From Maricaulis sp. (lineage in GTDB: Bacteria; Pseudomonadota; Alphaproteobacteria; Caulobacterales; Maricaulaceae), in assembly GCA_017643585.1 (NCBI GenBank), contig JAEPND010000004.1, positions 151,011 to 215,010 on the forward strand: 64,000 bases of DNA, in the 5' to 3' direction. Made by a program: the position numbers and the translations under genes. Positions 15,234-56,879 of the stretch are shown here, one piece after another. Every line of letters starts with the position of its first letter. Positions within the stretch are counted from its first letter, which is position 1. Below the pieces are notes generated by a model, which saw only the letters and a list, made by a program, of their open reading frames with translations, was not told the origin of the DNA and did no database searches.

Positions 15234-18200
15234 TTAGAATGTGTAGCTCAGACCAAATTCGAAGCGACGATCATTGTCGAAGACTGAACGGGCATATGTC
15301 TGACCCGCAGCATCGACCTCCTGGCGAGCCGTCGCCTGCGTATCAAGCAGGTTCGCGGCCTGTACACGGAACTGCAGATTGTCCGTGACGTCCCAGCGGA
15401 ATGAAGCATCGAGGAAACCGATGTCATCCTGGAGGATCGGGTTACCCGTGACGAAGTCGCGGTACGAGCTGTAGTAAGCGGAACGCCAGTTGTAGGCGAC
15501 GCGAACCTCGAAGCGATCATCCTGGTAGATACCGATCAGGTTGTAGGACGTGTCAGACAGACCCAGCAGGTCGCTGACTTCCCAGCGATAGACAGAGAGG
15601 AAGCCCTCTACGCCATCACCCTCGGTGTCACGAACGGACGGAAGCGCCGTCGTTTCGGAGTCGAGCAGGGTCAGGTTCGCCTGGACACCCAGATTACCCC
15701 ACAGTCCCGGCCACTGGGTGAAGAACTGCTGGTACGACAGTTCCAGACCTTCAACCGTACCGTCGTTGAGGTTCAGGTTACCGGAGTAGATGACCGGAAC
15801 CGTGTAACCATCCAGCGTAACCGCATCGATGGTCTCGTCACCGTATACGATGATGTTGCTCAGATCCTTGTGGAACAGGGATGCGGAGAACAGGCCATCG
15901 TCACCAAAATACCACTCGTAGGAGAGGTCGATATTGGTGGACTCAACCGGGTTCAGGTCCGGATTACCGCCATAGACACGCAGGGCGCCCAGGACGATGT
16001 CGGAGATAACCGGCGGCGTTGCGGTGTCATCAACCACGTAGCCGAGCTCGGCGATGGTCGCCTGGTTCGAGTTCAGGGCAGCGATGTCAGCCGGAGCGAT
16101 GGCTTCGCTGAACGCGAAACGCACCAGCATCTCATCATTCAGGTCCCAACGCAGGTTGAAGGACGGCAGGAAGTACTCGTAGCTGGCGTCGATCGTGTTG
16201 GCCGTGTTGGCCTGATCGAGGAACGCAGCGGTTTCCGGCAGGAAGTCACGCGGCTGAAGCGGGTCAGCCGGGTTGTCCTCAGCCATTTCCGCGAAGGAGG
16301 CGATACCGCCACCGGTGGTCTCGGTGCGGACATAACGCAGACCAAAATTACCGCTGACAGACTGGCCGTTGGAGAATTCCTGGCCGTAGTTGAACTGGGC
16401 GTAGAGGTTGGTGGTCTCCTCCCGCACGGAGCCTTCGCTGCCGCGATTGACATAGTCGACCATGCCGTTCTGACGCAGCGGCACCCAGTCACCAATCTGA
16501 AGGTTTCCGTCACCGTTCGGGCCGGAAGCGATCAGCGGCTCATTGGCCAGCGAGTTCACGAACGCTTCGTAGTCCTGCATTTGCATGCGGCTCGGGAAGA
16601 CGATCGAGGTGATATCACCGAGGAACACGCCGCCACCTTGGAAGCCAGAGAAGTCGGCCACGTCGTAGGCGCCAGCATCCGCGCGGTTCGCGTAAGGCAG
16701 GTAGCCACCAGCCCACGGCGGAGCGATACCACCCCAGTTCAGGCCGGCATTGCGGTTGGTCTGCTCGCGCTGCGAGAAGCGTGCACCGAATTCGACAGAG
16801 TCGAACCAGCCGTCACCATCGAACTCATACAGGGCATCACCGCGCAGAGCGTAGAGGTCACCCGTATTGTCTTCGAACTGGTCAGCTGCATATAGCAGGA
16901 AGGCGTAACGCGGATCAGCGAGATCACCCAGGACACCCGGGTCAGCACCACGGAAAGTTCCACCCCAATCGGCGAGGCGAACAGAATCCGACAGGAACAG
17001 CTCGATTTCCGGATTTTCGGTGTCGGAGAAATCGAAACGATAGTCGGCGAAGTGGTTACCACCGGCCCACAGACGCTCCAGTGTCGCTTCCGCATCGGTG
17101 TAGTGACCATCGAGCTCGATGTAGAGACGATCGTTCACACGCCACTGGAAGTTGGCGCTGAAATCTTGCGTCACTGACTCGTTCGTCTGGGCAATCGCCA
17201 GCGACTGCAGCGGTGTCTGCAGGTTGCCGGTCTGACCCAGCCAGTCACGAAGGTTGTTGGAGACCACCCCGGACTCCATCAAACCACCATCGATCGGGAT
17301 CAGGTTTTCACAGATGCCGATACCACCATTGGCAGCTTCGCCCGCACCACTACAACGCGGAATGCCCGCAGACGTGAACGGAATGATATTACGCGAGCTG
17401 GAGTCCTCCAGGATGGACCAGGCTGCCCAGGATTCCGCATCGGTGAAGAATTCGATCGTGCGCTCGTCCGTCTGAACGGTGTTCTCAACGCGGGTCGCCT
17501 TGAGCGTCAGCTCCATGTCGCCATCGTTGGAGCGCCACTGACCAGCAACGTAAAAGCTGTCACGGTCACGACCGATTTCGGCATCACGTGCCTGCCAGCC
17601 ACCCGGCAGAGCCATGGTGGTGCCCGGCGCGTCCGGGTTCGGAACCGCGAGGAGCGGGCCGTACTGGAAACCGTTGATGGAAGACTGGAGTTCGGACGTC
17701 GAGAAAGAACCCAGCAGGCCGAATTCACCGGCGTCGGTTTCCCAGCGATCGCCGAGGATCACGCTGAGACCCGGGCTCCACTCTTCAGCCTGGTCGGTAT
17801 AGATCGTGTCAGCGACCACGACAGCAATACGATCATTGCGATCGAACGGCTCGAGCGTGCGCAGGTTCACGGTACCGGCAAGACCGCCTTCGATCATGCT
17901 GGCCGTCTGGTTCTTGAAGACCTCAACCGCACCGATCAGCTCCGGCGGGATGCTGGCCCATTCCAGGGCACGACCACCGTTGGCAGAGAATGCGTCACGA
18001 CCGTTGAATTCGGAACGGACGTACTGGAGACCACGGACGATATTGCCGGAGCCTTCCGGAGAGGGGAAGTCCCCGTCACTGCCGCCAAGCTCGAAGCGCT
18101 GGGTCACGACCCCCGGTACGCGAGCGAGCGCCTCGGCGACGGAGAGGTCCGGCAGCTGCGAGACGTCAGTGGCTGTGATGGAGTCCACGAAAGTGTCTGC

Positions 18201-18392: not shown

Positions 18393-18453
18393 GTGCATTC
18401 TCCCCTGAAATGTATCCGTGGACTGAATCCCTTCAGCCAACCCTTTCTGTAAT

Positions 18454-18467
18454 TACCAACGTTGTCA
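18454..18467. promoter_or_regulatory. LacI-type operator between TBDR A and halogenase array A
   Basis: TACCAACGTTGTCA (on the minus strand TGACAACGTTGGTA) matches the window's recurring palindrome TGACAACGTTGTCA at 12 of 14 positions. Its centre is 68 bases from the TBDR GTG and 55 bases from the halogenase ATG, so one bound repressor could silence both divergent promoters. Confidence 0.7.
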
Positions 18468-18515
18468 TAACTCAGTTGCTTTTTGCAATAGGCAATCCAT
18501 ATTGGGCGGAGAAAA

Positions 18516-20066
18516 ATGAGCCATCGAGGGCCGACCGTGAGCGTGATTTCACGAATTTGTATTTTGGGTGGAGGAACAGCCGGCTGGATGACAGCGGCCG
18601 CATTGTCTCACAAATTCAAAGACTTAAATATTGATATATCTCTGGTTGAATCGGACCATATTGGCACCGTAGGTGTCGGTGAGGCAACATTGCCACATAT
18701 TCGGTTTTTCAATCAGGCCCTCGGCATTGACGAAGCCACGTTCATGAAATCGACCGAGGCAACCTTCAAGCTCGGCATTGAATTTTGCGATTGGGGCCGG
18801 AAGGGTGACCACTACATTCATCCCTTCGGTGATTATGGTGTCCCGATCGATGAACTGGACTTCCATCAATTCTGGCTGAAGCTGCGCAAGGCCGGTGGCA
18901 CGCACCGGCTCAGCGATTACTCCTATCCCATCCTGGCCGCCGAACAGGGCCGATTCCGCATACCGGAAGGCGACCTCAATGAGATCGGCTCCAATTTTGG
19001 TTACGCCTACCAGTTCGACGCCGGCCTCTATGCCAAGTTTCTCCGGACGTTCAGCGAGGCGAACGGTGTCCGCCGGGTCGAGGGGCGCGCCGTTGAAGTC
19101 GGAATCGATGGAGAGAGCGGCAATATCAGCTCCATCAAGCTCGAGGACGGGCACGTCATCGAAGCGGACCTCTTCGTCGATTGCTCGGGCTTTCGCGGCC
19201 TGTTGATCGAACAGGAACTGAAGACAGGTTATGATGACTGGAGCCACTGGCTGCCTTGTAACCGGGCCGTCGCCGTGCCGTGCGAGTCACGCGGTGAGCT
19301 GCGGCCCTACACCCGGGCAACCGCACGCACCGCAGGCTGGCAGTGGCGAATTCCACTCCAGCACCGCACCGGCAATGGCCATGTCTACTGGAACGAGTTC
19401 ATCTCCGACGATGAGGCGACACACCAGTTGATGAGCACGCTGGATGGCCCGGCCCTGGCGGAGCCCAAGCAGCTTTTCTTCAAGACAGGTCGACGCAAGA
19501 AGTTCTGGAACCGCAACGTGGTGTCGATCGGTTTATCGGCAGGCTTCCTCGAGCCCCTTGAGTCGACGTCGATACACCTGATCCAGGAAGGCATTACGAC
19601 GCTGATAGAATTGTTCCCGCGCGATGGCGTCAATCCGCTGGACATCAACGAATACAATGCGCGCATGGGCCTGAACTTCGAGCGCGTTCGGGACTTCCTG
19701 CTATTGCACTATGTGGCCACCCAACGCGATGACAGTGAGATGTGGCGCTATTTCCAGGCCATGGAGCTACCCGACAGCCTGCAGGAAAAATTGTCGGCGT
19801 GGAACGCGCGCGGCTACGTCCTGCAATACGAGTTCGGCGTTTTCCTGCCACCCAGCTGGGTCGCCGTCATGCACGGCCAGAACCTCATTCCAGAAGGCCA
19901 CGACCCACGTGTCGACCGCTATTCGATCGCTGATATTGAAGCCCGACTTGAGCAAATTCGTCTCGACACTGTCCGTGAAGTTGAGACGACACCAACGCAA
20001 GTGGACTTCCTGCGCCGGCATGGCGCCGCCTCCGGCTCCCCGCTCGTCAGCGCCGGCAAGATGTGA
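18516..20066 (+). CDS. Flavin-dependent (tryptophan) halogenase family protein, array A gene 1
   Basis: This 516-residue protein carries the FAD motif GGGTAG (18-23), the GVGEAT segment, the halogenase lysine K85 in FKLGIEF, the WxWxIP signature (WQWRIP, 275-280) and the catalytic-type glutamate E349 in GFLEPLESTS. The family uses FADH2, oxygen and halide to make a lysine-bound hypohalous species. Members in TBDR loci such as BrvH act on indole in vitro, but natural substrates are unknown. The ribosome site GGCGGAG precedes ATG 18516. It heads a four-gene run divergent from the TBDR, and its product has no signal peptide, so it should be cytosolic. No flavin reductase is encoded nearby. Confidence 0.88.
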   Translation: MSHRGPTVSVISRICILGGGTAGWMTAAALSHKFKDLNIDISLVESDHIGTVGVGEATLPHIRFFNQALGIDEATFMKSTEATFKLGIEFCDWGRKGDHYIHPFGDYGVPIDELDFHQFWLKLRKAGGTHRLSDYSYPILAAEQGRFRIPEGDLNEIGSNFGYAYQFDAGLYAKFLRTFSEANGVRRVEGRAVEVGIDGESGNISSIKLEDGHVIEADLFVDCSGFRGLLIEQELKTGYDDWSHWLPCNRAVAVPCESRGELRPYTRATARTAGWQWRIPLQHRTGNGHVYWNEFISDDEATHQLMSTLDGPALAEPKQLFFKTGRRKKFWNRNVVSIGLSAGFLEPLESTSIHLIQEGITTLIELFPRDGVNPLDINEYNARMGLNFERVRDFLLLHYVATQRDDSEMWRYFQAMELPDSLQEKLSAWNARGYVLQYEFGVFLPPSWVAVMHGQNLIPEGHDPRVDRYSIADIEARLEQIRLDTVREVETTPTQVDFLRRHGAASGSPLVSAGKM

Positions 20067-20089
20067 AGCAGAGGCTGATACGCGACCCC

Positions 20090-21523
20090 ATGACCACCCG
20101 GAGCAAAACCATCATCATCTGCGGCGGCGGCCTGGCCGGCAGCCTCGCTACACTCAGTCTGTCGCTGAGCCTGGGCAGCGAGTACCACATTGTCCAGGTT
20201 GGCGGCATCAACGCCCGGCATGAGGACCACCTGTATGGTGGAGCGACCGATCCGGGCTCTTACAACTTTCTGCTCCGGCTCGGGCTCGATGAGCCGACGC
20301 TCATGCTGCGGAGCGCGACATCATTCTCGTTCGGCACCCATTTTCGACAGTGGCTGGACGGCCGGTCGTGGATGCAGTGCCACCACGCGCCGCTGCCGAC
20401 GCCCAGCGGCATTCCGCTGCGCCACTATCTGACACGTGAAAACGCGGGGCTGGAACCCCTGCTCATCTCCGCCCAGGCGGCCCTTGCCGGCAAGTTCGCC
20501 CATCCTCCGGCCGATCCGAGATCGGTACTGGCCAGCGCCGAGTACGGCTATCAGTTCGACGCCGACGAGTGGGTGGCCCTGCTTGACCGCAAGATCGGAG
20601 AGACCAGCGCCCGGCGTATCAACGCAGAGATCCGCTCGATCATCCATGAAAGTGCTACCCGCTCCGTCGTTAACCTGGACACCGGCGAACCCCTTGAAGC
20701 GGACCTGGTTGTGGATGCGAGCGGCCTGTCGCGATATCCCATTGAAGCAGCCGGAGGCACATTCCGCACCTCTCGCAGTATCGGCTTCAGCCTGTCCAAG
20801 ACCCCGAGCGACGCCCTGGGCCCGCCCTGTCGCACCATCGATGCCGATGAGACCGGCTGGAAGGCGACGACACATCTGCAGAACGCACGACACACGCTGC
20901 GTGTCAGTGAAGCCGGGATGGCCTCGGATGAGGCGGCGGCGCACACCGCCGCGCTGGGACATCTGGTGGAGGCATGGGTTGGCAATTGCGTCGCGATCGG
21001 ACATGCGGCCAGCGTCTTCGAACCGCTGACCCCGGCGCCGATGATGATGCTGCAGCGTGATATCGAGCGGCTCCTGGAACTGATCCCGACCCACGCCGAT
21101 CCTGGTATCGAACGCCGCGAATTCAACCGGCGCTTCCGGAATGATGTGGAACATGTCGCAATCTTCCACGGTGCCCTTATTACAATAGATAGCGCGCCGG
21201 AGACAGAATACTGGCGGGCCGCACGCGAACAGACGGCAAGCGGGAAACTGGATCGCAAGCTTGCTCAGTTCTCCAACCGGGGTCTCCTGACTAGCTTTGA
21301 TCTGGAACCGTTTAACGAGGAAGACTGGACCATCGCACATTGGGGAATGGGGCGAAGGCCGCACCAGCATAACCGCCAGGTCGACGGTGTCAGCGACACA
21401 CAATCGCAGTCCGAACTTGGCCAGATCCGCAATTCCGTCCAGCAACTTGTCACCAAGATGCCACCGCATCACTTGTATGTGGGCAAGCTGAAGCAATATC
21501 TCGAGAAACAGAATTATGCCTGA
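20090..21523 (+). CDS. Halogenase-like pseudoenzyme, array A gene 2
   Basis: This 477-residue protein keeps the halogenase fold outline: an N-terminal GGGLAGS Rossmann loop, YGYQFDADEWVALL, LEADLVVDASGL and a C-terminal helix region. It has lost the functional residues. The FKLGI lysine is replaced by a segment reading FSFGTHFRQW, the WxWxIP motif by ETGWKATTH, and PLEST by FEPLTPAP. It should therefore not halogenate. GTG 20063, overlapping the previous stop, is an alternative start; ATG 20090 aligns better with paralogues. It overlaps gene 3 by 8 bases. The equally placed gene in array B (48091-49323) is also degenerate. A regulatory or partner subunit role is an inference. Confidence 0.75.
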   Translation: MTTRSKTIIICGGGLAGSLATLSLSLSLGSEYHIVQVGGINARHEDHLYGGATDPGSYNFLLRLGLDEPTLMLRSATSFSFGTHFRQWLDGRSWMQCHHAPLPTPSGIPLRHYLTRENAGLEPLLISAQAALAGKFAHPPADPRSVLASAEYGYQFDADEWVALLDRKIGETSARRINAEIRSIIHESATRSVVNLDTGEPLEADLVVDASGLSRYPIEAAGGTFRTSRSIGFSLSKTPSDALGPPCRTIDADETGWKATTHLQNARHTLRVSEAGMASDEAAAHTAALGHLVEAWVGNCVAIGHAASVFEPLTPAPMMMLQRDIERLLELIPTHADPGIERREFNRRFRNDVEHVAIFHGALITIDSAPETEYWRAAREQTASGKLDRKLAQFSNRGLLTSFDLEPFNEEDWTIAHWGMGRRPHQHNRQVDGVSDTQSQSELGQIRNSVQQLVTKMPPHHLYVGKLKQYLEKQNYA

Positions 21524-23039
21524 GACAGCGCCCGACACCATCAAGCAGATCGTTATCGTCGGCGGTGGCTCGGCAGGCTGGATGACTGCAGCTGCCTTGT
21601 CGAGCATGCTGCCAGCCCACGCGGTGCGGATTTCGCTGGTTGAATCGGAGCAGATCGGCACGATTGGCGTCGGTGAGGCGACGATCCCGGACATCATCAA
21701 TTTCAACGCCATGCTCGGCATCCCTGAGGCCGAATTCCTCAAGGCGACGAACGGGACGTTCAAGCTGGGCATCAAGTTTGTGAACTGGGGGCGGCTCGGC
21801 GAGGACTATCTCCACCCGTTCGGCCCTCACGGGGCCGACATGAACGGGATTGATTTCCATCAGTTCTGGCTGCGCCATCTCGAGCAGAACCCGTCCAGCA
21901 CGATCGAGGACTTCAGCCTGAGCGCTGTTGCTGCCAAGGCCGGCAAGTTCGCAATGCCGGACCCCAATCCGCGCTCCGTGCTCTCACAACTGAGATACGC
22001 CTATCACTTCGATGCGACCAAATACGCGCTTTTCTTGCGCAATTATGCGGAGCAACGCGGTGTGCGCCGGATCGAGGGCAAGGTGACCGAGGTGCGCCAG
22101 GATCCGGAAACTGGGTTTATCCAACAGATCGAACTGGAAGATGGCTCAGCCATACCGGGCGAGTTGTTCTTCGATTGCACCGGCTTTCGGGGCCTGCTTA
22201 TCGACAAGGCGCTGGACGTGCCGTTCAAGGACTGGTCCCACTGGCTGCCGTGCGATACCGCGCAGGCCGTCGCCTGTGAGCTGTCGGGCGATATCCTCCC
22301 CTACACCATCTCGACGGCCAAGGAGGCCGGCTGGCAGTGGCGGATACCGACCCAGCACCGGACCGGGAATGGCCATATCTATTCCAGCAGCCTGATGAGC
22401 GATGATGCGGCGATCGACAGCCTGCTCAAGGACCTCGACGGACCTGCAATCGGATCGCCTCGCAAGATCCGCTTCCGGACCGGACATCGCGCCCGGCTGT
22501 GGGAGAAGAATTGCGTCGCCATCGGGCTGTCAGGTGGCTTCCTGGAACCCCTGGAATCAACATCGCTCTTCCTGATCCAGGAAGGTATCAGCAAGTTCAT
22601 CGCGCTGTATCCGTCGGCAGACCTGCCGGCCAGTGTTCGTGACGAATATAACCGCCAGCTCGTGAAAAAGTTTGAGCAGGTACGGGACTTTATCATCCTG
22701 CACTACAAGGCCACCGAGCGGGACGACAGCCCCTTCTGGAACCATACGCGCACGATGGATGTGCCCGACTCCCTGACCCAGCGGATCGAGCTGTTCCGGG
22801 AGGCGGGTCGTGTCTTCCGCTATGAAGACGAACTGTTTTCCAAACCCAGCTGGGTCGCCGTCCTGCTGGGTCAGAATATCGTGCCGAAATCCGTTGACCC
22901 GATCGTGGGCACCGTCGACCGTGCGGGAATTGCCAGAAGTCTGCAGTCCATGACAACAGCAATGACCAACGCCGTCACCCAGATGCCAACGCATCGGGCG
23001 TTCTTGGAAAAGTATGCGTGGTCAGGGGCCAGCGCCTAG
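21516..23039 (+). CDS. Flavin-dependent (tryptophan) halogenase family protein, array A gene 3
   Basis: This 507-residue protein has a complete motif set: GGGSAG (16-21), GVGEAT near 51, lysine K83 in FKLGIKF, WQWRIP (273-278) and E347 in GFLEPLESTS. The following residues are LFLIQ rather than the IHLIQ of its neighbours. Function and cofactor needs are as for other halogenases of this class, and the substrate is unknown. Its ATG lies inside the end of gene 2 (8-base overlap), so production is probably coupled to that of the pseudoenzyme. It is likely cytosolic, with no signal peptide. Confidence 0.88.
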   Translation: MPETAPDTIKQIVIVGGGSAGWMTAAALSSMLPAHAVRISLVESEQIGTIGVGEATIPDIINFNAMLGIPEAEFLKATNGTFKLGIKFVNWGRLGEDYLHPFGPHGADMNGIDFHQFWLRHLEQNPSSTIEDFSLSAVAAKAGKFAMPDPNPRSVLSQLRYAYHFDATKYALFLRNYAEQRGVRRIEGKVTEVRQDPETGFIQQIELEDGSAIPGELFFDCTGFRGLLIDKALDVPFKDWSHWLPCDTAQAVACELSGDILPYTISTAKEAGWQWRIPTQHRTGNGHIYSSSLMSDDAAIDSLLKDLDGPAIGSPRKIRFRTGHRARLWEKNCVAIGLSGGFLEPLESTSLFLIQEGISKFIALYPSADLPASVRDEYNRQLVKKFEQVRDFIILHYKATERDDSPFWNHTRTMDVPDSLTQRIELFREAGRVFRYEDELFSKPSWVAVLLGQNIVPKSVDPIVGTVDRAGIARSLQSMTTAMTNAVTQMPTHRAFLEKYAWSGASA

Positions 23040-23056
23040 GAAATTGGGGAAGAGAA

Positions 23057-24559: not shown

Positions 24560-24597
24560 GACCGGCCTCAAGGCCCGCGCGTGAGCGTATCAGAGCC

Positions 24598-24632: not shown

Positions 24633-24659
24633 ATACTGTTCGATCATTCGCGTTCAGTG

Positions 24660-26669: not shown

Positions 26670-26709
26670 TTTCGTCATTGAGGTCGTGAGTACCGGGAGG
26701 AAATTTGCT

Positions 26710-35763: not shown

Positions 35764-35765
35764 GC

Positions 35766-37849: not shown

Positions 37850-37981
37850 TTTCCCGTCCAACCGCCGCGGATTGTGTGCTGTTTGCGTGCTCCAGATCAA
37901 TCAAGAAACGCGCCCGTCAAGAGCGAAGCCCTGCAACTGGTCTGCATCGACACACCCGGTACGCTGGGCTAAGCAAATAGC

Positions 37982-39367: not shown

Positions 39368-39429
39368 ATTTCCAGTCCGGCACGCATTGGCCCTTGTCAG
39401 ACCGGGCCAACGGCTCCACCTTGGTTAAG

Positions 39430-39442
39430 TGAACGGCGTTCA
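39430..39442. promoter_or_regulatory. Palindrome upstream of the P450 gene
   Basis: TGAACG-G-CGTTCA is a perfect 6+6 inverted repeat centred 27 bases before the P450 start. Its size and place fit a TetR-family operator that would block transcription start. No TetR gene is in the window. Confidence 0.45.
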
Positions 39443-39462
39443 TTAACTAGTCGGAGGCGGCC

Positions 39463-46402: not shown

Positions 46403-46439
46403 CGAAGTTCTCCCCTCATTGAAGCACGCCGCTTTTTAT

Positions 46440-46453
46440 TGACATCGTTGTCA
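46440..46453. promoter_or_regulatory. LacI-type operator between TBDR B and halogenase array B
   Basis: TGACATCGTTGTCA matches the TGACAACGTTGTCA consensus at 13 of 14 positions, flanked by AT and AT to give a longer inverted repeat. It is centred 44 bases before the TBDR start and about 136 bases before the first halogenase start. Confidence 0.75.
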
Positions 46454-46582
46454 ATTGCTGTCACCATCACCTAAACACTTCGACCTGTCAACAATAGCAA
46501 TTCGAAGAAGTTGAAAGTTTAGTGCCCAGAACAAGCAAACCATGCGTGATTTTCAGGGCGGCACGGGGGAGAAAAATCGGCC

Positions 46583-48094: not shown

Positions 48095-49323
48095 CCCGAC
48101 CTATCAGACGCATAGCGATCCTGGGCTCGGGACTTGAAGCGGTGCTTGCCGAGTTTGTGCTGGCCCAGCGCACCGGTCTGGAGGTTGCGCGCTATTCGGA
48201 ATCGAATACTCCAGCCCTGTCGGCGGCGCATAGTGTGCTCACCCCGCAGGCCCTGCAACAGCTCGAACATGCGGGGTTGAGTCTGCGCGACCTGCTGGGT
48301 CTTCCGGGCTCGCTTCCGACCCTGGGCGCCCGGTTGAGCAAAGAGGGCCAGACGCGTTGCCGCCCGTTTGGCCCCTGCGGTCTCGACTGGGCAGGCACTG
48401 GATTTCATCACCATTGGCTTCGTGCACGACACGGAGGGCTGGCCGTACCGTACGCAGCCTTCTCGCCAGCCTACCGTGCCATGCAGGAAAACCGATTTGC
48501 GCCACCCGACCGTCGCAACCGGATCGGGGCACTTCAGCATGAATCCGGGCTGCATGTGCATCCGGCTGCCCTCTTCGATCGGCTGGCACAGGCTCGGCAA
48601 GCCCACCCCATCCATCCGGGCCTGGACGTCGACGCAGACCTGATTATCGATGCCCGCGAGGTCACACCGGGGCTCGAGCGCGCCGAAACCGGGATCGTCC
48701 AGCCCTGTTCGGAATGGACGTGCGAGGTCGGCGAGTTGCACGTGTCGATCCCCTTGCGTGGAGAAACGCTTGAACAGCGCATAGCTCCAGCTTCACCAAC
48801 CACCGCAATCCTGCCCCCGTGGACCGGAAACAGGGTCAGCATCGGCCAGGCAGCGCATGCTGGACCGTGTCTGCCAGGCCTTGCCGTGGAACGCCTCCTG
48901 TTTGAACTGGATTTGCTGATCGAGCTCATGCCCGATGCTGCGTGCGACCCGGCAGAGACCCTCGAATACAACCGGATCTGGATCGAGGAGATGAAAGAAG
49001 TAGACGCCCTGGTCTCGCTCTATTTGGATGTTGAGAACCCGCGCGCGTCGGAGCGATTGCAAATGTTCCAACACAGAGGCTATGTCCGCTCGCTCGACAC
49101 CAGCCTGGTCACGGAGAGCGACTGGATTTCCCATGCCCTGGCGCTGGGTCATATTCCTCGACACCACGACCCGCTGTCACACCGTCTCGACGACAGCCGC
49201 CTGAAACTGGAGCTCGGACAACTGCTCCAGAAGGTGAATACCGTGAGCGGCGAGTTTCCACCCTTCGCCGTCTATCTCGAGGCCATCGACAAGGCCCTTG
49301 GCCGCGCGGAGGAAACCGCATGA
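48091..49323 (+). CDS. Halogenase-like pseudoenzyme, array B gene 2
   Basis: This 410-residue protein is shorter than its neighbours by about 95 residues and strongly diverged. The N terminus RRIAILGSGLEAVLAEFVLA still looks like a Rossmann start, and the C-terminal part (ETLEYNRIWIEEMKEVDALV, PPFAVYLEAIDKAL) follows the halogenase pattern. The FKLGI lysine, the WxWxIP motif and the PLEST glutamate are all absent; the last region reads AAHAGPCLPGLAVERLL. It cannot be a normal halogenase. Start and stop overlap genes 1 and 3 by ATGA junctions, so it is translated with them. It takes the same place as the pseudoenzyme of array A, from which it differs greatly. Confidence 0.72.
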   Translation: MTRPIRRIAILGSGLEAVLAEFVLAQRTGLEVARYSESNTPALSAAHSVLTPQALQQLEHAGLSLRDLLGLPGSLPTLGARLSKEGQTRCRPFGPCGLDWAGTGFHHHWLRARHGGLAVPYAAFSPAYRAMQENRFAPPDRRNRIGALQHESGLHVHPAALFDRLAQARQAHPIHPGLDVDADLIIDAREVTPGLERAETGIVQPCSEWTCEVGELHVSIPLRGETLEQRIAPASPTTAILPPWTGNRVSIGQAAHAGPCLPGLAVERLLFELDLLIELMPDAACDPAETLEYNRIWIEEMKEVDALVSLYLDVENPRASERLQMFQHRGYVRSLDTSLVTESDWISHALALGHIPRHHDPLSHRLDDSRLKLELGQLLQKVNTVSGEFPPFAVYLEAIDKALGRAEETA

Positions 49324-50846
49324 GCGCACGTCCAGTCTCCAAGGTCCTGATCGCAGGCGGTGGTACCGCCGGCTGGATGACCGCGGCAGCTTTGAGCAAG
49401 TTTATCCTGCCGGCCGGGGTCAGCGTGGAACTCGTCGAATCCGATGCCATCGGCACGGTGGGCGTCGGTGAAGCCAGCATTCCCGGGATCGCGGATTTCA
49501 ACCGCATGCTGGGTATCTCGGAGCCAGATTTCATCGCCGCCACCAGGGGCAGTTTCAAACTTGGCATCGAGTTTGTGAACTGGGGAGCGATTGGCGAAAG
49601 TTATCTGCATCCTTTTGGCGATTACGGGTTCGCGCTGCAGGGCGAGGATTTCCACCATTTCTGGAACCGCGCACGGCTGCACGGTGACGCCCATGCGCTG
49701 GAGACATATTCGATGTGTTGCATGGCGGCCCGCGCCGGCAAGTTCATGCTGCCGGCCAGCGATCTGCAATCTCCCGTCTCCCAGATGCGTCACGCCTATC
49801 ATTTCGACGCCGGCCTCTATGCCCGCTTGCTTCGCAGTTTCGCTGAAAGACGCGGCGTGGTCCGCCGGGAGGGGCGTATATCCGGAATTGAGCGTGATGG
49901 TCAGAGCGGAGCGATTCTGGCCCTGACGCTTGATGACGGATCCCGCCTGGAAGCGGATCTGTTTGTCGACTGCACAGGTTTTCGCGGCCTGTTGATCGGT
50001 GATGAACTGGGCGTCGCGTACGAGGATTGGAGACAGTGGCTTCCCTGTGATCGTGCCATCGCCCTGCCAACAGCCAGAGGCGAGACAACGCCACCCTTCA
50101 CGCGCGCCACGGCGCGGGAAGCCGGCTGGCAATGGCGGATCCCGCTCCAGCATCGTGTTGGCAATGGTTACGTCTACTCCTCTGCTCATACAGATGATGA
50201 TCGTGCGCTGGACGTATTGACCCGGAACATGGACGGGAACGTCCTGGCCGAACCCAACCGGCTTCGCTTCACCCCCGGCCGGCGCACACGTTTCTGGGAG
50301 AAGAACTGCGTTGCGATCGGATTGTCATCGGGTTTCCTGGAGCCGCTTGAATCAACCTCCATCCAGCTGATTCAGGAAGGCGTGAGCAAGCTCCTGGCAC
50401 TGTTCCCAAGGGATGGCATGAGCCCGCTGGAAACCAAGCGCTACAATACGATCATGGCAGACGCCTTCGACTATATTCGGGACTTCCTGATCCTGCACTA
50501 TCACGCGACGCGCCGGGACGACTCGCCGTTCTGGAACCACGTTCGAACGATGGATATTCCCGACAGCCTCGCCGAGACGCTGGACCTGTTCCGCGGAAAT
50601 GGCCGCTTCTTCGCCCACAAGGGCGATCTTTTCACTCTGACAAGCTGGCTCGCCGTGATGGTGGGACAGGGCATCGAGCCCAAGGCCTACTCCCCCGTTG
50701 CGGACAGTCTTGCCAGCGCCGAACTGACCACGACGCTGAAAGACATGCGGGAAACCTATGCCCTGGCGGCGAGCAAAATGCCGCCACACGACGCCTTCAT
50801 CGCGCATATGCTCAAGAAGGCCAGTATCCAAGGAGAGCATGCATGA
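49320..50846 (+). CDS. Flavin-dependent (tryptophan) halogenase family protein, array B gene 3
   Basis: This 508-residue protein has the full motif set: GGGTAG (13-18), VELVES then GVGEAS, K80 in FKLGIEF, WQWRIP (270-275) and E344 in FLEPLESTSIQLIQ. It is likely a working FADH2-dependent enzyme of unknown substrate, with no signal peptide. ATGA overlaps join it to genes 2 and 4. By position it corresponds to 21516-23039 in array A. Confidence 0.88.
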   Translation: MSARPVSKVLIAGGGTAGWMTAAALSKFILPAGVSVELVESDAIGTVGVGEASIPGIADFNRMLGISEPDFIAATRGSFKLGIEFVNWGAIGESYLHPFGDYGFALQGEDFHHFWNRARLHGDAHALETYSMCCMAARAGKFMLPASDLQSPVSQMRHAYHFDAGLYARLLRSFAERRGVVRREGRISGIERDGQSGAILALTLDDGSRLEADLFVDCTGFRGLLIGDELGVAYEDWRQWLPCDRAIALPTARGETTPPFTRATAREAGWQWRIPLQHRVGNGYVYSSAHTDDDRALDVLTRNMDGNVLAEPNRLRFTPGRRTRFWEKNCVAIGLSSGFLEPLESTSIQLIQEGVSKLLALFPRDGMSPLETKRYNTIMADAFDYIRDFLILHYHATRRDDSPFWNHVRTMDIPDSLAETLDLFRGNGRFFAHKGDLFTLTSWLAVMVGQGIEPKAYSPVADSLASAELTTTLKDMRETYALAASKMPPHDAFIAHMLKKASIQGEHA

Positions 50847-52375
50847 CCGTCAAGCCGATCCGTTCCGTTACGATCGTCGGTGGAGGCACGGCCGGCTGGA
50901 TGACCGCTGCGGCCATGTCCAAGATTTTCGCGGATCATGATCTCAAGATTGCGCTCATCGAGTCCGAACAGATCGGTACGGTGGGTGTCGGTGAGGCCAC
51001 CATCCCGCAGATCCTGCTGTTCAACCGGATGCTGGGCATCGATGAGAACGCGTTCATCAAGGCCACCCAGGCCACTTTCAAACTGGGTATCGAGTTTGAG
51101 GGCTGGCGTCGGCAGGGACATTCCTACCTCCACCCGTTCGGCTCGTATGGCAGTGACATGGACGGGGTGATGTTTCATCACTTCTGGCTCAATGCGCGGC
51201 AGCGTGGTTACGAAGTCGAGCTGCCGGAATTCTGCTTACAGGTACTCGCGGCGCGCGAGGGACGCTTTCTGCGTCCGGTGCCCAATGCCAAGAACTCGCC
51301 GCTTGGCCATATTGCCTACGCCTTCCAGTTCGATGCCGGACTCTATGCGAAATACTTGCGTGACTATGCCGAGGCGCGCGGGGTCGAGCGGATCGAGGGT
51401 CGTGTCGAACACACATCCCTGCACCCGGAGAATGGTCACCTCGCCTCGGTGAGCCTGCAGGACGGTCGAGAGTATTCCGCCGACTTTTTCATCGATTGTT
51501 CCGGTTTCCGCGGCCTCTTGATCGAACAGGCCCTGGAGACCGGTTACGAGGACTGGAGCGACTGGCTCCCGTGCAATCGGGCCCTGGCCGTGCCTTCAGA
51601 GCGTGTCCGTGCACCCGACCCGTTCACGCGCTCGACCGCTCGTCCCGCGGGCTGGCAATGGCATATCCCGCTGCAACACCGCACCGGAAACGGACATGTC
51701 TATTGCTCGGATCATATGCGCGATGATGAGGCCGCCGCGATCCTGCTGGACAATCTGGAGGGCCGGGCGCTGCGCGACCCGATCCAGCTGCGCTTTGTCA
51801 CCGGCCACCGCCGCAAATTCTGGAACCGGAATGTGCTGGCCATTGGTCTGGCGGCCGGGTTCATGGAACCTCTGGAGTCGACCAGCATCCATCTGATCCA
51901 GAGTGGTATCGCGCGCCTGATGACGCTCTTCCCCGACCGGAGTTTCAATCCGGCAGACATCGAGGAATACAATCGCCTGACGTTGCAAGAGTATGAGTAT
52001 GTGCGTGACTTCCTGGTGTTGCACTATCGTCAGACCGAGCGTGACGACAGCGAGTTCTGGCGTCGGTGCCGAAATCTTCCGATGACCGATCACCTCGCGC
52101 GCAAGCTGGAGCTCTACCGTACGAATGGCCGCGTCTACCGGGAGAAGGACGAGCTGTTCAATGAGACCAGCTGGCTCGCCGTGATGGACGGGCAAGGTGT
52201 TGTACCGGAGGGTCACCACCCTCTTGTGGCCAGTCTCGGCGAGATGGAAGTCGATGCCCGCCTTGAGCAAATACTCTCAGTGATCCGGGCATCAGCAGAT
52301 CACATGCCTCGTCATGAGGAATTTATCGCGCAACATTGCGCCGCCGAACCTGATTTACTGTCAGAGAACGTGTAG
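50843..52375 (+). CDS. Flavin-dependent (tryptophan) halogenase family protein, array B gene 4
   Basis: This 510-residue protein has GGGTAG (13-18), GVGEAT near 48, K80 in FKLGIEF, the tryptophan signature as WQWHIP (271-276, still WxWxIP) and E345 in FMEPLESTSIHLIQ. The residues after FKLGIEF are EGWRRQG instead of the usual VNWG, so the pocket may differ. It starts by ATGA overlap with gene 3, and its stop lies 10 bases before the start of the GH9 gene, joining the halogenase array to a glucanase in one operon. Confidence 0.88.
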   Translation: MTVKPIRSVTIVGGGTAGWMTAAAMSKIFADHDLKIALIESEQIGTVGVGEATIPQILLFNRMLGIDENAFIKATQATFKLGIEFEGWRRQGHSYLHPFGSYGSDMDGVMFHHFWLNARQRGYEVELPEFCLQVLAAREGRFLRPVPNAKNSPLGHIAYAFQFDAGLYAKYLRDYAEARGVERIEGRVEHTSLHPENGHLASVSLQDGREYSADFFIDCSGFRGLLIEQALETGYEDWSDWLPCNRALAVPSERVRAPDPFTRSTARPAGWQWHIPLQHRTGNGHVYCSDHMRDDEAAAILLDNLEGRALRDPIQLRFVTGHRRKFWNRNVLAIGLAAGFMEPLESTSIHLIQSGIARLMTLFPDRSFNPADIEEYNRLTLQEYEYVRDFLVLHYRQTERDDSEFWRRCRNLPMTDHLARKLELYRTNGRVYREKDELFNETSWLAVMDGQGVVPEGHHPLVASLGEMEVDARLEQILSVIRASADHMPRHEEFIAQHCAAEPDLLSENV

Positions 52376-52385
52376 GAGTGGCCCC

Positions 52386-54218
52386 ATGCTCGTTCTAGCC
52401 GCCAGCCTGCTCGGAGTTCTGCAAGCCACACCAGACTGTGCGCTCGCAGAAGACTTCCCTCCGATTGTCATGAACCAGACCGGTTTCGAAGCAAATGGCC
52501 CCAAGCTCGCCATTTTGCGGACCAGCACCGAGACCGCCGTGGGCTGGCGTATTGTGGACGCGGATGGCCAGGCTCTGGCCGCAGGCATGAGCGATCCGTT
52601 CGGCTTTGACCACACCGCTGGCGAAGCACTTCACCGCATCGACCTTGGCTCTGTTACGGCGACCGGGGACGGCTTCACCATCGAAGCCTGTGGCGTGCGT
52701 TCGCGGTCATTCTCGATCGGAGAGCGGCCCTATGCGGAACTGGCGGAAGACAGTTTGCGCTATTTCTATCTGAATCGACTTGGAACGGACCTCGACCCGG
52801 CCTTTACCGCAGGAGAGGCGTGGGCCCGCGAAGGCGGATTTTTCGACAGTCGCGTCACCTGCTTCAGCGGGAGGGACATGACAGGAAGCCAATGGCCCGG
52901 CTGCGCTTATGAGCTGGATACAACCGGCGGCTGGGCGGATGCCGGCGATTATGGCCAATACGTCGTCAATGGCGGCATTTCGGTCTGGACGCTGCAACAC
53001 GTCTACGAGCGCTTCAATGCGCGCGGACAACTTGACGAGCTCGGCTGGGATGGTGCGCGGGTCGCCTTGCCCGAGAGCCAGGACGGGATCAGCGAGATCC
53101 TGCTTGAGGCCCGCTGGCAACTGGAATTCATGCTGGCCATGCAGGTCCCCGACGGGGCCGCAGTCTGGGTCGATGCCCGCGAACCGGGCGCAGAACAGTC
53201 ACATCCGGCCCACATAGACGGCTCGGGCCTCGCCCATCACAAGCTTCACGAACGGTCCTGGCTGCCGCTCCCCCTCTTGCCAGAGGATGCCGAGGAAACC
53301 CGGTACCTGATCCCCCCGACGACAGCAGCCACGCTCAACCTGGCAGCGTCAGCCGCCCAGTGCTCCCGTCTCTGGCGCGCCCTGGACGACGCGTTCGCCG
53401 CACGCTGCCTGGCCGCAGCCCGTCGCGCTTTCCAGGCCGCCGAGCGGCACCCGGACCTGTTGGCATACAATACGTTCGACGGCGGAGGCGCCTATGGTGA
53501 CCTCATCGTTGCAGATGAGTTTTACTGGGCTGCGGTCGAGCTCTACCTGTCCACGGGTGAGCCGGAATACCGCCAATCCGCACTGCGTTATCGAGGGCAA
53601 ATGGAGACCCGTCGCGCGATCTTCTGGGCCAACACCGAAATACTGCCCGAACTCTCGCTCTCGCTGGCCGCTCCGGACAATCAGCTGCGCAATCAGGCCG
53701 AGGAACTGATCGTGGCAACCGCCGCCCAGTATCACGAAGAAATGGCGGCCACCGGCTATCACTATCCACTGACTCCATCTGAGATAACCTGGGGCTCCAG
53801 CGCCAACCTGCTCAACCGGGCGCTGGTCCTTGCAGCGGCACATGATATCGATCCGGACCGCGGCTTCCGCGACGGTGTCGTCCACGCGATGGATTACCTG
53901 CTGGGACGCAACCCGCTCGACCAGAGCTATATCGCTGGCCATGGCGCACGGCCGATGCGCTTTCCCCATCACCGGTTCTGGGCGAATGGCGCCGACCCCG
54001 AATTTCCCGAAGCCCCACCAGGTGCTCTGTCCGGCGGTCCGAATTACCGCATTATGACCGACCCGATTGCAAGGGAGATGGACGGTCAGTGTGCGCCCCA
54101 GACCTGCTGGGCCGACCATGTTGACGCTTATGCGCTGAATGAAGTGGCCATCAACTGGAACGCGCCACTCTTCGCCATATCCGCCTATCTTGACGCCTCA
54201 CAAGCCGAACACGACTAA
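52386..54218 (+). CDS. GH9 endo-beta-1,4-glucanase, exported
   Basis: This 610-residue enzyme starts at ATG 52386 (AGGAG upstream) with a short signal peptide ending near ALAED. An N-terminal immunoglobulin-like CelD-type domain (about 24-112, PIVMNQTGFEANGPK) precedes the alpha/alpha barrel. The catalytic aspartates D185 and D188 are in GGWADAGDYG, the conserved HHRFW lies near 524 and the acid E586 in ALNEVAINWNAP. It hydrolyses cellulose-like or mixed-linkage beta-glucan in the periplasm. Encoded directly after the halogenases and before a GH3 exo-enzyme, it suggests module B handles beta-1,4 or mixed-linkage glucan. Confidence 0.9.
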   Translation: MLVLAASLLGVLQATPDCALAEDFPPIVMNQTGFEANGPKLAILRTSTETAVGWRIVDADGQALAAGMSDPFGFDHTAGEALHRIDLGSVTATGDGFTIEACGVRSRSFSIGERPYAELAEDSLRYFYLNRLGTDLDPAFTAGEAWAREGGFFDSRVTCFSGRDMTGSQWPGCAYELDTTGGWADAGDYGQYVVNGGISVWTLQHVYERFNARGQLDELGWDGARVALPESQDGISEILLEARWQLEFMLAMQVPDGAAVWVDAREPGAEQSHPAHIDGSGLAHHKLHERSWLPLPLLPEDAEETRYLIPPTTAATLNLAASAAQCSRLWRALDDAFAARCLAAARRAFQAAERHPDLLAYNTFDGGGAYGDLIVADEFYWAAVELYLSTGEPEYRQSALRYRGQMETRRAIFWANTEILPELSLSLAAPDNQLRNQAEELIVATAAQYHEEMAATGYHYPLTPSEITWGSSANLLNRALVLAAAHDIDPDRGFRDGVVHAMDYLLGRNPLDQSYIAGHGARPMRFPHHRFWANGADPEFPEAPPGALSGGPNYRIMTDPIAREMDGQCAPQTCWADHVDAYALNEVAINWNAPLFAISAYLDASQAEHD

Positions 54219-54254
54219 TCCAGAACCGCCTGCAGGTCGCCTTGATCGCAAGAT

Positions 54255-54268
54255 TGACAACGTTGTCT
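54255..54268. promoter_or_regulatory. LacI-type operator upstream of the module B GH3 gene
   Basis: TGACAACGTTGTCT matches the consensus at 13 of 14 positions, centred 44 bases before the GH3 ATG and 36 bases after the GH9 stop. It gives the GH3 its own regulated promoter. Confidence 0.75.
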
Positions 54269-54305
54269 AAATACGATCATCTAACCTCAAACAGGGGAGC
54301 CACTC

Positions 54306-56879
54306 ATGCCGTTTCATCGTCCGTCCACAACCGCTGTCTCTTTGCTGGCCCTTTCAGCTGCGCTGGGTCTGGCAGGTTGCCAACCCTCCTCTCAGAGTGA
54401 GCAGACGACCCAGGAATCCGCGACGACCGAACCGGTTTTTGTCGACCTCCCCGAGGCGGCAACGGCCGATCCGGACAACTGGCCAGCGATTGCCCCGCTG
54501 CCCCTGGACCCCGAGATCGAAGCGCGTATCGACGAAATCCTCGCGCTGATGACGGTCGAGCAGAAGGTCGGCCAGACGATCCAGGCAGACAGCGGCTCCG
54601 TCACCGCCGAGGAAGTTCGGGATTACCGCCTGGGTTCGGTCCTCAGCGGCGGCAATTCTGCACCCGGCCCACGCCCGTATGCGGACGCCGAATCCTGGTT
54701 GGCGGCTGCGGACGCCTATTTCAACGCGTCTATCGACCCGGAGGGTGTTGAGATTGCAATCCCGATGATCTGGGGCATCGACGCCGTACACGGGCATGCC
54801 AACCTGCGCGGTGCCGTCGTCTTCCCGCACAATATCGGCCTGGGGGCGGCCAATAATCCGGATCTGATTGAAGATATCTACCGCATCACGGCTCGCGAAT
54901 TGTCCGTATCCGGTCACGACTGGACCTTTGCGCCGACGCTCGCCGTGCCACGCGATGACCGTTGGGGTCGGACGTATGAAGGCTTCTCGGAAGATCCGGA
55001 CATCGTTCGCGCCTATGGAGAACGCATCGTATGGGGTCTGCAGGGCCGTCCGGGCACGGATGAATTCATGGCGACAGGCCGGGTGATTTCCAGCGCCAAA
55101 CACTTCCTCGCCGACGGGGGCACGGTTGATGGTCGCGACCAGGGCGACGCCCAGATCAGCGAGGCCGAGCTTCGGGACATTCACGCCCAGGGTTATTACA
55201 CCGCCATCCCGGCCGGCGTTCAGACCGTCATGGCGTCTTTCTCAGGCTGGAATGGCGTACGCATGCACGGCAACCACTCGCTGTTGAATGATGTGTTGAA
55301 GGACCGCATGGGCTTTACCGGCTTTGTGGTCGGAGACTGGAATGGTCACGGCCTGGTCGCTGGGTGTACGGCGACAGACTGCCCCGAAAGCTTCAATGCG
55401 GGTGTCGACATGTACATGGCACCGGACAGCTGGCGGGAGCTGTATGACTCGACCCTGGAGCATGTCCGGGCCGGCCGCATTTCCATGGACAGGCTGGACG
55501 ATGCCGTCCGCCGTATCCTGCGTGTGAAAATCCAGTCTGGCCTGTTTGAACAGGTCGCACCCAGCCAGCGTCCCTTGGCCAATGATACAAGTGTTCTGGC
55601 CGCAGACGAACATCGCGCCGTTGCGCGCCAGGCCGTGCGGGAATCTCTTGTCCTCCTCAAGAACCAGGACAACCTCCTGCCACTCGACCCGGGTCTGACC
55701 GTGTTGGTGGTGGGTGACGGCGCGGACCATATCGGCAAGGCGTCTGGCGGATGGACACTGTCCTGGCAGGGCGGCGACTATCCCAATGAGGAATTCCCGG
55801 CCGGCCAGACCATTCTTGATGGCATCCGCGAGGTCGTGGAGGCCGCTGGCGGGCGCGTGATCTTTGATCCGGAAGGGGATGAAACGCACGATGCCGATGC
55901 CGTCATCGCCGTGTATGGCGAGAACCCCTATGCCGAATTCCAGGGGGATCGCGAGCATCTCGACTTCGTACCCAATGGCTTCGATACCGAGCGACTGGAA
56001 CTCCTGGCCAGCCAAGGCACGCCGGTCGTCAGTGTTTTCCTCTCCGGACGCCCGCTGTGGACCAACCCGGAGATCAATGACTCCGACGCCTTCATCGCCG
56101 CATGGCTTCCCGGGACGGAAGGCGGTGGCATCGCCGACATGCTCTTCAGGACTGAGCCCGACTACGACTTCACGGGTCGCCTGTCCTTCTCATGGCCAGC
56201 GAGTGCCGTCAGCGCACCGGTCAATCGAGGTGATGCCGACTATGCCCCGCTTTTCGCGTATGGATACGGGCTGAGTTACGGCGATATCGAGGACGTTGCT
56301 TCACTGTCTGAAGTGTCCGGCCTGTCAGCGGAAGATCTCGCCCCCAGCGGCGCCTTCTACCGGCTTGGCCAGTCGGTGGCGCCCTGGTCTGTTCAGACCG
56401 GTGTCGCCGGACAGTGGTCGGACGCGCCTGAGGACCGATTCGAGACCGAGACCCTGACCCTTGCACGCACCGATCGCACGGCTCAGGAGGATTCTCTCCA
56501 CTTCATCTGGCGGGAGGCTGGCGCCGGTGTGCGCCTGTCCACGTCGGAGCCGCATGACCTCTCGCGGGAAGCCAATGGCGCTATGGAAATCTCGTTCCGC
56601 GCTCGAGGCTTCAACAGCCGCGATACCTGGGTCGAGGTTGGCATGTCTTGTCACTCTGGCGAGGAATGCAGCCATTTCGTCCCCGTGCGCATCACACAGG
56701 GCCCATGGCAGGAATATCGCGTCAGCCTGAGCTGTTTCACGCAAGCAGGCGTCGACCTCACCAACACCGAAGCCGCTTTCATCCTGCGTTCGAACGAGGA
56801 CGATGGCGAAATCGGTCTCGGAGATATCGTGCTCGCCTCAGATACCGATGCCGCTCAGACATGCGGTGACACGCCCTAG
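54306..56879 (+). CDS. GH3 exo-beta-glucan hydrolase, lipoprotein (module B)
   Basis: This 857-residue lipoprotein has lipobox LAGC with C25, then a GH3 barrel (about 70-400, LMTVEQKVGQTIQ near 81, SAKHFLADGG near 263, nucleophile D344 in VVGDWNGHG), a GH3 sandwich (about 425-630) and an ExoP-type beta domain (about 690-857). The layout is the same as that of the module A enzyme at 12365-14959, with many identical blocks. It should release glucose from beta-gluco-oligosaccharides in the periplasm. AGGGGAG precedes the ATG. The gene is convergent with the gluconate permease gene, with 3 bases between the stops. Confidence 0.91.
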   Translation: MPFHRPSTTAVSLLALSAALGLAGCQPSSQSEQTTQESATTEPVFVDLPEAATADPDNWPAIAPLPLDPEIEARIDEILALMTVEQKVGQTIQADSGSVTAEEVRDYRLGSVLSGGNSAPGPRPYADAESWLAAADAYFNASIDPEGVEIAIPMIWGIDAVHGHANLRGAVVFPHNIGLGAANNPDLIEDIYRITARELSVSGHDWTFAPTLAVPRDDRWGRTYEGFSEDPDIVRAYGERIVWGLQGRPGTDEFMATGRVISSAKHFLADGGTVDGRDQGDAQISEAELRDIHAQGYYTAIPAGVQTVMASFSGWNGVRMHGNHSLLNDVLKDRMGFTGFVVGDWNGHGLVAGCTATDCPESFNAGVDMYMAPDSWRELYDSTLEHVRAGRISMDRLDDAVRRILRVKIQSGLFEQVAPSQRPLANDTSVLAADEHRAVARQAVRESLVLLKNQDNLLPLDPGLTVLVVGDGADHIGKASGGWTLSWQGGDYPNEEFPAGQTILDGIREVVEAAGGRVIFDPEGDETHDADAVIAVYGENPYAEFQGDREHLDFVPNGFDTERLELLASQGTPVVSVFLSGRPLWTNPEINDSDAFIAAWLPGTEGGGIADMLFRTEPDYDFTGRLSFSWPASAVSAPVNRGDADYAPLFAYGYGLSYGDIEDVASLSEVSGLSAEDLAPSGAFYRLGQSVAPWSVQTGVAGQWSDAPEDRFETETLTLARTDRTAQEDSLHFIWREAGAGVRLSTSEPHDLSREANGAMEISFRARGFNSRDTWVEVGMSCHSGEECSHFVPVRITQGPWQEYRVSLSCFTQAGVDLTNTEAAFILRSNEDDGEIGLGDIVLASDTDAAQTCGDTP

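Follow-up and report, generated by a model that had tools for sequence, protein, structure and literature searches.

The closest described relatives of the proteins considered here are flavin-dependent halogenases (FHals) of the BrvH type. In a 64,000-nucleotide stretch of DNA from Maricaulis sp. (hereafter the window; part of contig JAEPND010000004.1, here C41, of a 3.1 Mb genome), FHal-family genes form two arrays of four, A and B, each facing a gene for a TonB-dependent receptor (TBDR), and the second gene of each array is degenerate. The three nearest solved relatives of A1, the first protein of array A, are BrvH (6frl, the nearest), Xcc4156 (6y1w) and the Pseudoalteromonas L11 halogenase (9luq), and the motifs of this family, named here as in PMC5945002, are carried by the proteins at positions 1, 3 and 4. 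According to the accessible parts of the BrvH report (PMC5945002), the enzyme brominates indole with an activity so low that its authors doubt indole as the natural substrate; its open site, likened to that of MibH, which needs a peptide substrate, is proposed to admit larger substrates, and its gene too has a second FHal gene upstream. Tryptophan halogenases form the same dimer in crystals, as stated in the accessible part of PMC7336383. The available passages of the papers on the BrvH group name no natural substrate, and the word TonB is absent from the main texts, as far as accessible, of PMC5945002, PMC8269204 and PMC7336383. Unlike BrvH-type halogenases, the arrays are TBDR-tied runs of three to four genes with a second member that is predicted to be dead.

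Two other systems invite comparison. MibH and the tryptophan halogenases RebH, PrnA and PyrH resemble positions 1, 3 and 4 in fold and catalytic residues; in contrast to the setting of these enzymes, a Pfam scan of 39 window proteins shows no biosynthetic genes, and the TBDR–array gaps measure only 75 and 180 bp by mechanical starts (small open reading frames were not searched there). The TBDR context is shared with an operon seen in relatives and made up of TBDR, SapC, Cupin_8 and a single halogenase. In genomes G001 and G005, a similar locus with LacI, glycoside hydrolase (GH) family GH16 and GH3-ExoP genes contains a TBDR, two short genes and one halogenase; the short genes are SapC and Cupin_8 in G001, and G005 has a SapC match at the same place. 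The window modules differ from this operon in having four halogenase-family genes instead of one, and neither SapC nor Cupin_8. A first reading of the sequence alone had already remarked on the absence of SapC-like and cupin-like partners, rightly: the sole SapC match of the genome lies on contig C12, and Cupin_8 has no match over the cut-off in the genome and a single sub-threshold one on contig C43. In the literature searched, with most subscription journals and bioRxiv preprints outside it, we found no paper on the TBDR–SapC–Cupin_8–halogenase operon, no description of an array with a dead member, and no paper joining a halogenase with a pseudoenzyme or with both SapC and TonB-dependent.

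Two receptor-facing arrays with a degenerate second gene

The sequence-only reading described twin modules, each with a large TBDR gene on the minus strand facing four overlapping or closely spaced halogenase-family genes on the plus strand. Pfam and NCBIfam models bear this out, with one TIGR01782 TBDR (curated cut-off 310 bits) and four PF04820 genes (cut-off 21 bits) per module. Array A spans 18516-24559 and array B 46583-52375, both on the plus strand. The successive overlaps between neighbours measure 4, 8 and 22 bp in array A; in array B, each is 4 bp.

15234..18440, minus strand: TBDR_A (TIGR01782 568.6 bits; Plug and barrel domains)
18516..20066, plus strand: A1, intact flavin-dependent halogenase, position 1 (PF04820 630.6 bits; K, WxWxIP and EPLESTS present)
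20063..21523, plus strand: A2, putative pseudo-halogenase, position 2 (174.5 bits; motifs replaced)
21516..23039, plus strand: A3, intact halogenase, position 3 (610.9 bits; motifs intact)
23018..24559, plus strand: A4, intact halogenase, position 4 (630.2 bits; motifs intact)
43370..46402, minus strand: TBDR_B (TIGR01782 638.7 bits)
46583..48094, plus strand: B1, halogenase, position 1 (592.5 bits; catalytic K, WxWxIP and EPLESTS intact)
48091..49323, plus strand: B2, shortened and strongly degenerate putative pseudo-halogenase, position 2 (63.6 bits, in two pieces)
49320..50846, plus strand: B3, intact halogenase, position 3 (623.6 bits; motifs intact)
50843..52375, plus strand: B4, intact halogenase, position 4 (647.3 bits; motifs intact)

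The start of TBDR_A is a mechanical TTG, with the likely ATG 14 codons further in. In B1, the flavin adenine dinucleotide motif reads GGGTAD where GGGTAG is expected.

All eight array proteins match PF04820, as first read; what was missed is that the second gene of each array is degenerate and devoid of catalytic motifs. The other six proteins reach 592.5-647.3 bits, whereas A2 has 174.5 and B2 63.6 bits. Both lack the catalytic Lys, WxWxIP and the Glu of EPLESTS. In A2, FKLGI is changed to FSFGT, WQWRIP to WKATTH and EPLESTS to EPLTPAP, and in B2 no catalytic motif is left. In BrvH, K83 and E349 are the counterparts of the catalytic residues and the K83A mutation abolishes activity (PMC5945002, accessible parts). 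Alignment of A1 with BrvH places K83 at the K of FKLGI and E349 at the second E of EPLESTS. AlphaFold models of A2 (pLDDT 92.7) and B2 (pLDDT 86.7) reach TM scores of 0.86 and 0.81 to BrvH, and the nearest folds of both are BrvH 6frl (best), Xcc4156 6y1w and the Pseudoalteromonas L11 halogenase 9luq. Because both input alignments held canonical halogenases, the models show that the sequences fit the fold and do not amount to its blind discovery. By PF04820 score and model, position 2 is predicted to be a halogenase-fold protein, and the loss of catalytic residues suggests that it is catalytically dead.

Recurrence of the array order and constraint on position 2

The four-gene order of the window is found again in other genomes. 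Within the genus (19 genomes, 12 with a match), the order full–degenerate–full–full occurs in 11 of 11 four-gene arrays, the two of the window included; within the family (46 genomes, 32 with a match), it occurs in 14 of 14 further four-gene arrays among the matches listed, where some arrays are partial at contig ends. A deduplicated set holds 139 runs of halogenase genes (100 with at least three genes, 34 single genes and 5 pairs). The second gene is degenerate in all 100 longer runs (98 by script, 2 by inspection), most of which were fetched with position-2 queries, so that the genus and family listings, free of that bias, are the fairer test. Three of the five pairs are full–degenerate, one of which is truncated at a contig end. 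Two loci considered as exceptions to the order (L174 and L179) were discarded as such, their second frames having been hidden by an overlap filter. As a separate observation, G342:C267:5474-10199 has a row of three full-length halogenases, none of them degenerate, that belong to a different score class (∼435 bits) and were not counted.

Across the order, relatives of A2 (E ≤ 1e-40) are found in 22 of 348 genomes and 12 of 55 genera, and relatives of B2 (E ≤ 1e-12) in 12 of 348 genomes and 4 of 55 genera. A C-type query at E ≤ 1e-45 was abandoned as a measure of distribution, since canonical halogenases also matched (at least 116 of 348 genomes), and its figure is not used. A scan of named genomes, covering the best 80 of 339 relatives, gave A2-type loci in Asticcacaulis, Parvularcula, Litorimonas, Sphingomonas, Qipengyuania, Alteromonas and Colwellia, among others, with Caulobacter and Brevundimonas in its weaker tail. 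Loci L174, L176 and L178 of this tail, found via a full-length gene, still have a degenerate second gene. Asticcacaulis, Caulobacter and Sphingomonas 'Leaf' isolates have arrays as well (habitat judged from names), and the layout of TBDR plus array recurs in many alpha- and gammaproteobacteria.

The contrast between positions is sharp at the residue level. In the 11 genus arrays, K, WxWxIP and EPLESTS are kept by all 33 proteins at positions 1, 3 and 4, and GGGxxG in 32 of 33, the sole exception being B1 of the window; at position 2, K is kept in 1 of 11 proteins, WxWxIP in none and EPLESTS in none. A wider table covers 47 degenerate members (45 second genes of runs and 2 in pairs), among which B2-type rows align poorly. 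The catalytic Lys and Glu occur together in none of the 47; seven retain just the Lys, two just the Glu (L111, and L024 in a poorly aligned stretch), and one retains WxWxIP. The T–S pair is kept in 0 of 47, L102 being without residues where EPLESTS would align. For positions 1, 3 and 4 the table mostly reads K-W-E-T-S, with a few cut by contig ends; in L111, positions 3 and 4 deviate at the S. The position-4 enzymes of L097-L105 (family f3, genus g26) have Gln at the Thr of EPLESTS.

Despite their losses, the position-2 genes are under purifying selection. Ratios of nonsynonymous to synonymous rates (dN/dS, NG86) at position 2 are 0.11-0.39 in 15 of 16 pairs and undefined in one, the pairs being hand-picked, sharing some loci and including some saturated dS values. 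They exceed those of the halogenase neighbours in 14 of 15 pairs, and the exception has a mispaired position 3. Mispairings were left out (TBDRs of L104/L103 and L176/L183; position 3 of L104/L103). Of the rows of the A2 search, 22 of 23 are free of internal stops, and the remaining one (G160) lies in an open frame of 476-478 aa. New residues are also shared: FSxGT, FAHPP and EPLTPAP recur in 20 A2-type proteins.

Linkage to the receptor and possible roles of the arrays

Of the 100 runs, 91 have a TBDR-family gene no more than 2.5 kb away. Six of the nine others are on contigs or pieces cut near the array, L102 has a split receptor frame, and L084 and L183 have no TBDR-family gene within 2.5 kb of the array. 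Clustering of neighbours within 9 kb finds a TBDR in 93 of 100 loci (55 of 61 A-type and 38 of 39 other). The next commonest neighbours are GH3 (20 of 61 A-type loci) and a 597-aa family (17 of 39 other loci; the example is the GH43 of L023), and apart from halogenases and TBDR no gene, and among these no carbohydrate-active enzyme (CAZyme), recurs in most of the 100 clustered loci. The arrays adjoin differing CAZymes (GH16/GH17/GH3, GH9/GH3 or GH10/GH43/GH115); by their GH families, loci are read here as of laminarin, xylan or alpha-glucan type. Thus, the array is linked to the TBDR rather than to any CAZyme. The idea, advanced in the sequence-only reading, that aromatic groups on algal polysaccharide are modified fits poorly with these differing CAZymes, none of them present in most loci, with array proteins lacking a signal peptide (judged by eye) and with the non-marine genera (by name). 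The other function put forward there, control of the uptake system, is still a candidate, with the TBDR as its near-constant partner. Within the genome, four TIGR01782 TBDRs score over the cut-off and three of them adjoin halogenases.

Other partners are sporadic or distant. SapC (PF07277) is found in 0 of 99 array loci (the window counted once) and in four of the loci scanned, none of which has an array; Cupin_8 (PF13621) is found in 23 of 99 array loci. The sole Flavin_Reduct match over the cut-off in the genome is on contig C22, far from the arrays, and the supply of reduced flavin would therefore lie elsewhere in the cell. A 244-aa family, whose example (L091 5186-5878) has TPR repeats, is near 15 of 61 A-type arrays, and relatives of the window gene at 26686-27282 are near 14 of 61 (e.g. 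L083 1661-2305), one with a CBM4_9 match. In a xylan-type locus, L041 770-3399 (G008:C23), the TBDR is reduced to about residues 4-208 and the array to one C4-like halogenase (70%), while the GH43 remains, with 90% identity to its relative; receptor and array may have eroded jointly in this one case, near a contig end.

Receptor and array also agree in part in their trees. The TBDR tree (support 99) and the third-halogenase tree (98) each unite the seven Alteromonadales arrays in a single clade, and in both trees a Lysobacteraceae array belongs to an 18-row set with 17 alphaproteobacterial ones (100 and 95); the mispaired receptor of L104 was left unused, and the third gene of some three-gene runs (e.g. 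L156) may be a position-4 gene. This agreement fits receptor and array travelling together, without proving so. Between any two of the five proteins, distances are correlated (0.63-0.87; 44 loci). A special partnership between positions 1 and 2 was considered from 55 loci (r 0.68 for H1–H2, 0.53 for H2–H3) and was not upheld with 44 complete arrays.

The reading that we prefer, with a probability of roughly 0.4, is that of a TBDR-dedicated halogenase assembly, with a dead position-2 partner, acting on or for the receptor. Each module would consist of a TonB-dependent polysaccharide receptor and its own dedicated halogenase set, which the absence of signal peptides suggests to be cytoplasmic. 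Three enzymes with complete motifs (positions 1, 3 and 4) would be accompanied by position 2, kept as an obligate partner, and the four co-translated proteins would form one or more hetero-oligomers in which position 2 may serve the active subunits as scaffold, adaptor or regulator. A hetero-oligomer subunit is the simplest role for position 2, because it is a conserved and probably dead member among presumably active paralogues and because family members dimerise in crystals (PMC7336383, accessible part). The function is placed at the receptor because the TBDR is the only other near-constant gene. The assembly would most likely oxidise or halogenate aromatic side chains of the co-encoded TBDR polypeptide before export, and this modification of the receptor is the boldest step. 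A wider version, in which active halogenases and an obligate pseudo-halogenase constitute a widespread protein-modifying machine, one per polysaccharide receptor, that modifies aromatic residues of the cognate TBDR in the cytoplasm, with the pseudo-halogenase (or SapC in the alternative operon) as receptor-recognising adaptor, we consider unlikely. The fixed order and the conserved, apparently dead subunit, tied to a receptor and not to one sugar enzyme, narrow the search to the receptor and to complexes; assays of single array members may miss the true activity, and reconstitution of all four is the obvious experiment.

Several points weigh against a receptor-dedicated assembly. Linkage to the TBDR can also arise when an uptake locus is transferred as a unit, with no need for the array to act on the receptor. 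PF04820 finds no match in seven of the 19 Maricaulis genomes (two of the seven are <70% complete), and the fourth TIGR01782 TBDR of the genome, on contig C17, has no halogenase on its contig. Besides the query bias mentioned above, the run rule leaves outside the lone degenerate-scoring genes L175 and L177 and the full–full pairs L112 and L186. Degeneration is graded: Lys and WxWxIP persist at position 2 of L105, where Asp stands in for the catalytic Glu, so that activity might survive in some position-2 proteins. Since halide binding in BrvH is assigned to the backbone amides of T351 and S352 (PMC5945002, accessible parts), side-chain changes at T and S alone prove little; A2-type proteins have Pro at the second of these sites. 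The Alteromonadales clade attaches differently in the TBDR and halogenase trees, with weak support in the latter. Finally, partial correlations of position 2 are 0.27-0.34 with positions 1, 3 and 4 and −0.27 with the TBDR (44 loci), and the distance correlations name no partner for position 2.

An alternative that appears doubtful gives the active enzymes a free small molecule as substrate, such as an indole or phenol signal or an aromatic freed during glycan breakdown, with TBDR linkage reflecting shared regulation only and position 2 being a regulator or a second flavin-binding protein. Bromination of indole by BrvH, the cytoplasmic look of the array proteins by eye, and the operator-like repeat that links TBDR_B and array B with GH3 and SSF genes (see below) would all agree with such a substrate. 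Against these stand the doubts of the BrvH authors themselves about indole (PMC5945002, accessible parts). In addition, no gene beyond halogenases and TBDR recurs in most clustered loci, and the arrays adjoin enzymes of laminarin, GH9 and xylan types and occur in genera that are non-marine by name.

It is more unlikely still that the array serves the receptor without halogenating, its members being flavoproteins that, as chaperones or redox sensors, aid the expression or assembly of the TBDR. The near-constant TBDR, the loss of the catalytic pair at position 2, and SapC and arrays never sharing a scanned locus could be read in this way. Yet K, WxWxIP and E are kept at positions 1, 3 and 4 over large divergence, which points to catalysis, the small departures at the T–S pair in L097-L105 (position 4) and L111 (positions 3 and 4) standing beside these kept motifs. 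That position 2 is a decaying, functionless pseudogene among otherwise ordinary halogenases is suggested by its lost motifs and by the fastest evolution among the array genes, but is very improbable given its presence in 100 of 100 runs, its open frames in the A2 search, dN/dS of at most 0.39, new residues shared by 20 A2-type proteins, and the constancy of its place in the array across families and classes.

Regulation, age and surroundings of the modules

The sequence-only reading credited both modules with one plan, including a shared LacI-type operator and a GH3 exo-glucanase lipoprotein with an ExoP-type C terminus. Both GH3 proteins do carry PF18559 and, by eye, a lipobox-like Cys; the GH3 gene lies on the opposite side and strand in A and B.

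11117..12151, minus strand: LacI-family regulator adjoining module A (PF00356)
12365..15019, minus strand: GH3 exo-glucanase-type lipoprotein of module A (PF00933, PF01915, PF18559 (Exop_C); lipobox-like LSAC by eye)
18453..18468, plus strand: weak operator-like site in the TBDR_A/A1 gap (3 mismatches; absent in five A-type relatives)
40866..41882, minus strand: LacI-family regulator adjoining module B (PF00356, Peripla_BP_3)
46439..46454, plus strand: operator-like palindrome TTGACATCGTTGTCAA in the TBDR_B/B1 gap (0 mismatches)
52314..54218, plus strand: GH9 glucanase of module B (PF00759, PF02927)
54254..54269, plus strand: operator-like copy 5′ of the module B GH3 gene (1 mismatch)
54306..56879, plus strand: GH3 exo-glucanase-type lipoprotein of module B (PF00933, PF01915, PF18559 (Exop_C))

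The lipobox-like Cys of the module B GH3 follows a signal-like N terminus, as in module A. The first start codon of the GH9 gene overlaps B4, and its true start is probably later. Module A is near GH16, GH17 and GH3 genes; module B adjoins GH9 and GH3.

The 16-bp pattern TTGACATCGTTGTCAA, taken from the B site after that site had been seen, has six matches in the window against 0.55 expected, and 0 of 100 shuffles reached six. It is perfect at 46439, with one-mismatch copies at 54254, 61568 and 63761, and one of the six matches falls inside B1 (47133). In the B-type relatives L024 and L027, one-mismatch sites lie between TBDR and array and also 5′ of the GH3 gene, and relatives of the LacI protein 40866..41882 (76% and 94%) adjoin the arrays, so this regulator is a candidate reader of the palindrome. 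An operator common to both modules is rejected for A, where the site has three mismatches and the TBDR–array gap of five A-type relatives (L025, L026, L029, L030 and L079) has no match; the claim holds for module B.

Raw identity shows no positional pairing between the arrays (the best match of A1 in B is B4, at 54%), and trees are needed; TBDR_A and TBDR_B are 36% identical and the two GH3 proteins 47%. In a genus tree of 63 halogenases, A1+B1+C1 form a clade (99/94) and A2+B2+C2 one side of a branch (100/100), and the grouping A3+B3+C3 is not rejected (p-value of the approximately unbiased test, p-AU, 0.41). An exclusive clade A4+B4+C4 is rejected (p-AU 0.000675), because the pair and single halogenases nest among position-4 genes. 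Array-wise grouping, the outcome that would have spoken against paired clustering, is rejected for A1+A3+A4 (p-AU 0.0174) and B1+B3+B4 (p-AU 0.00067), which implies that the modules diverged anciently. In a wider tree of 26 arrays hand-picked from the 100, positions 1 and 2 are each one side of a branch (SH-aLRT 99 and 100); position 3 requires four changes, as does position 4. In both trees, long-branch attraction could have helped the long-branched position-2 rows to group. Each of the types A, B and C clusters with its counterparts in other genomes, and the duplication is therefore old. Taken together, the positional identity of the array genes is ancient, and the halogenase trees mainly favour whole-module duplication, with the paired clustering first envisaged for all positions upheld at 1 and 2, not rejected at 3 and lost as an exclusive clade at 4.

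The 11 PF04820 match rows of the genome correspond to ten genes, all within C41:129-204 kb. The two outside the arrays are intact convergent halogenases ∼20 kb outside the window, at C41:129554 and 131158 (G000:C41:129554-132528; L012 11534-14547), next to the third TIGR01782 TBDR and to alpha-amylase, CBM48 and MFS genes, a locus that we take to be of alpha-glucan type. Such a convergent pair is also present in G002, G003, G005, G008, G010 and G015. Near module B, an M24-family protein and a cytochrome P450 are adjacent (window 37982-40839). Between the modules, a galactoside block (window 30792-37900) contains GH42, GH36, epimerase-family, galactokinase-type and galactose-1-phosphate uridylyltransferase-type genes.

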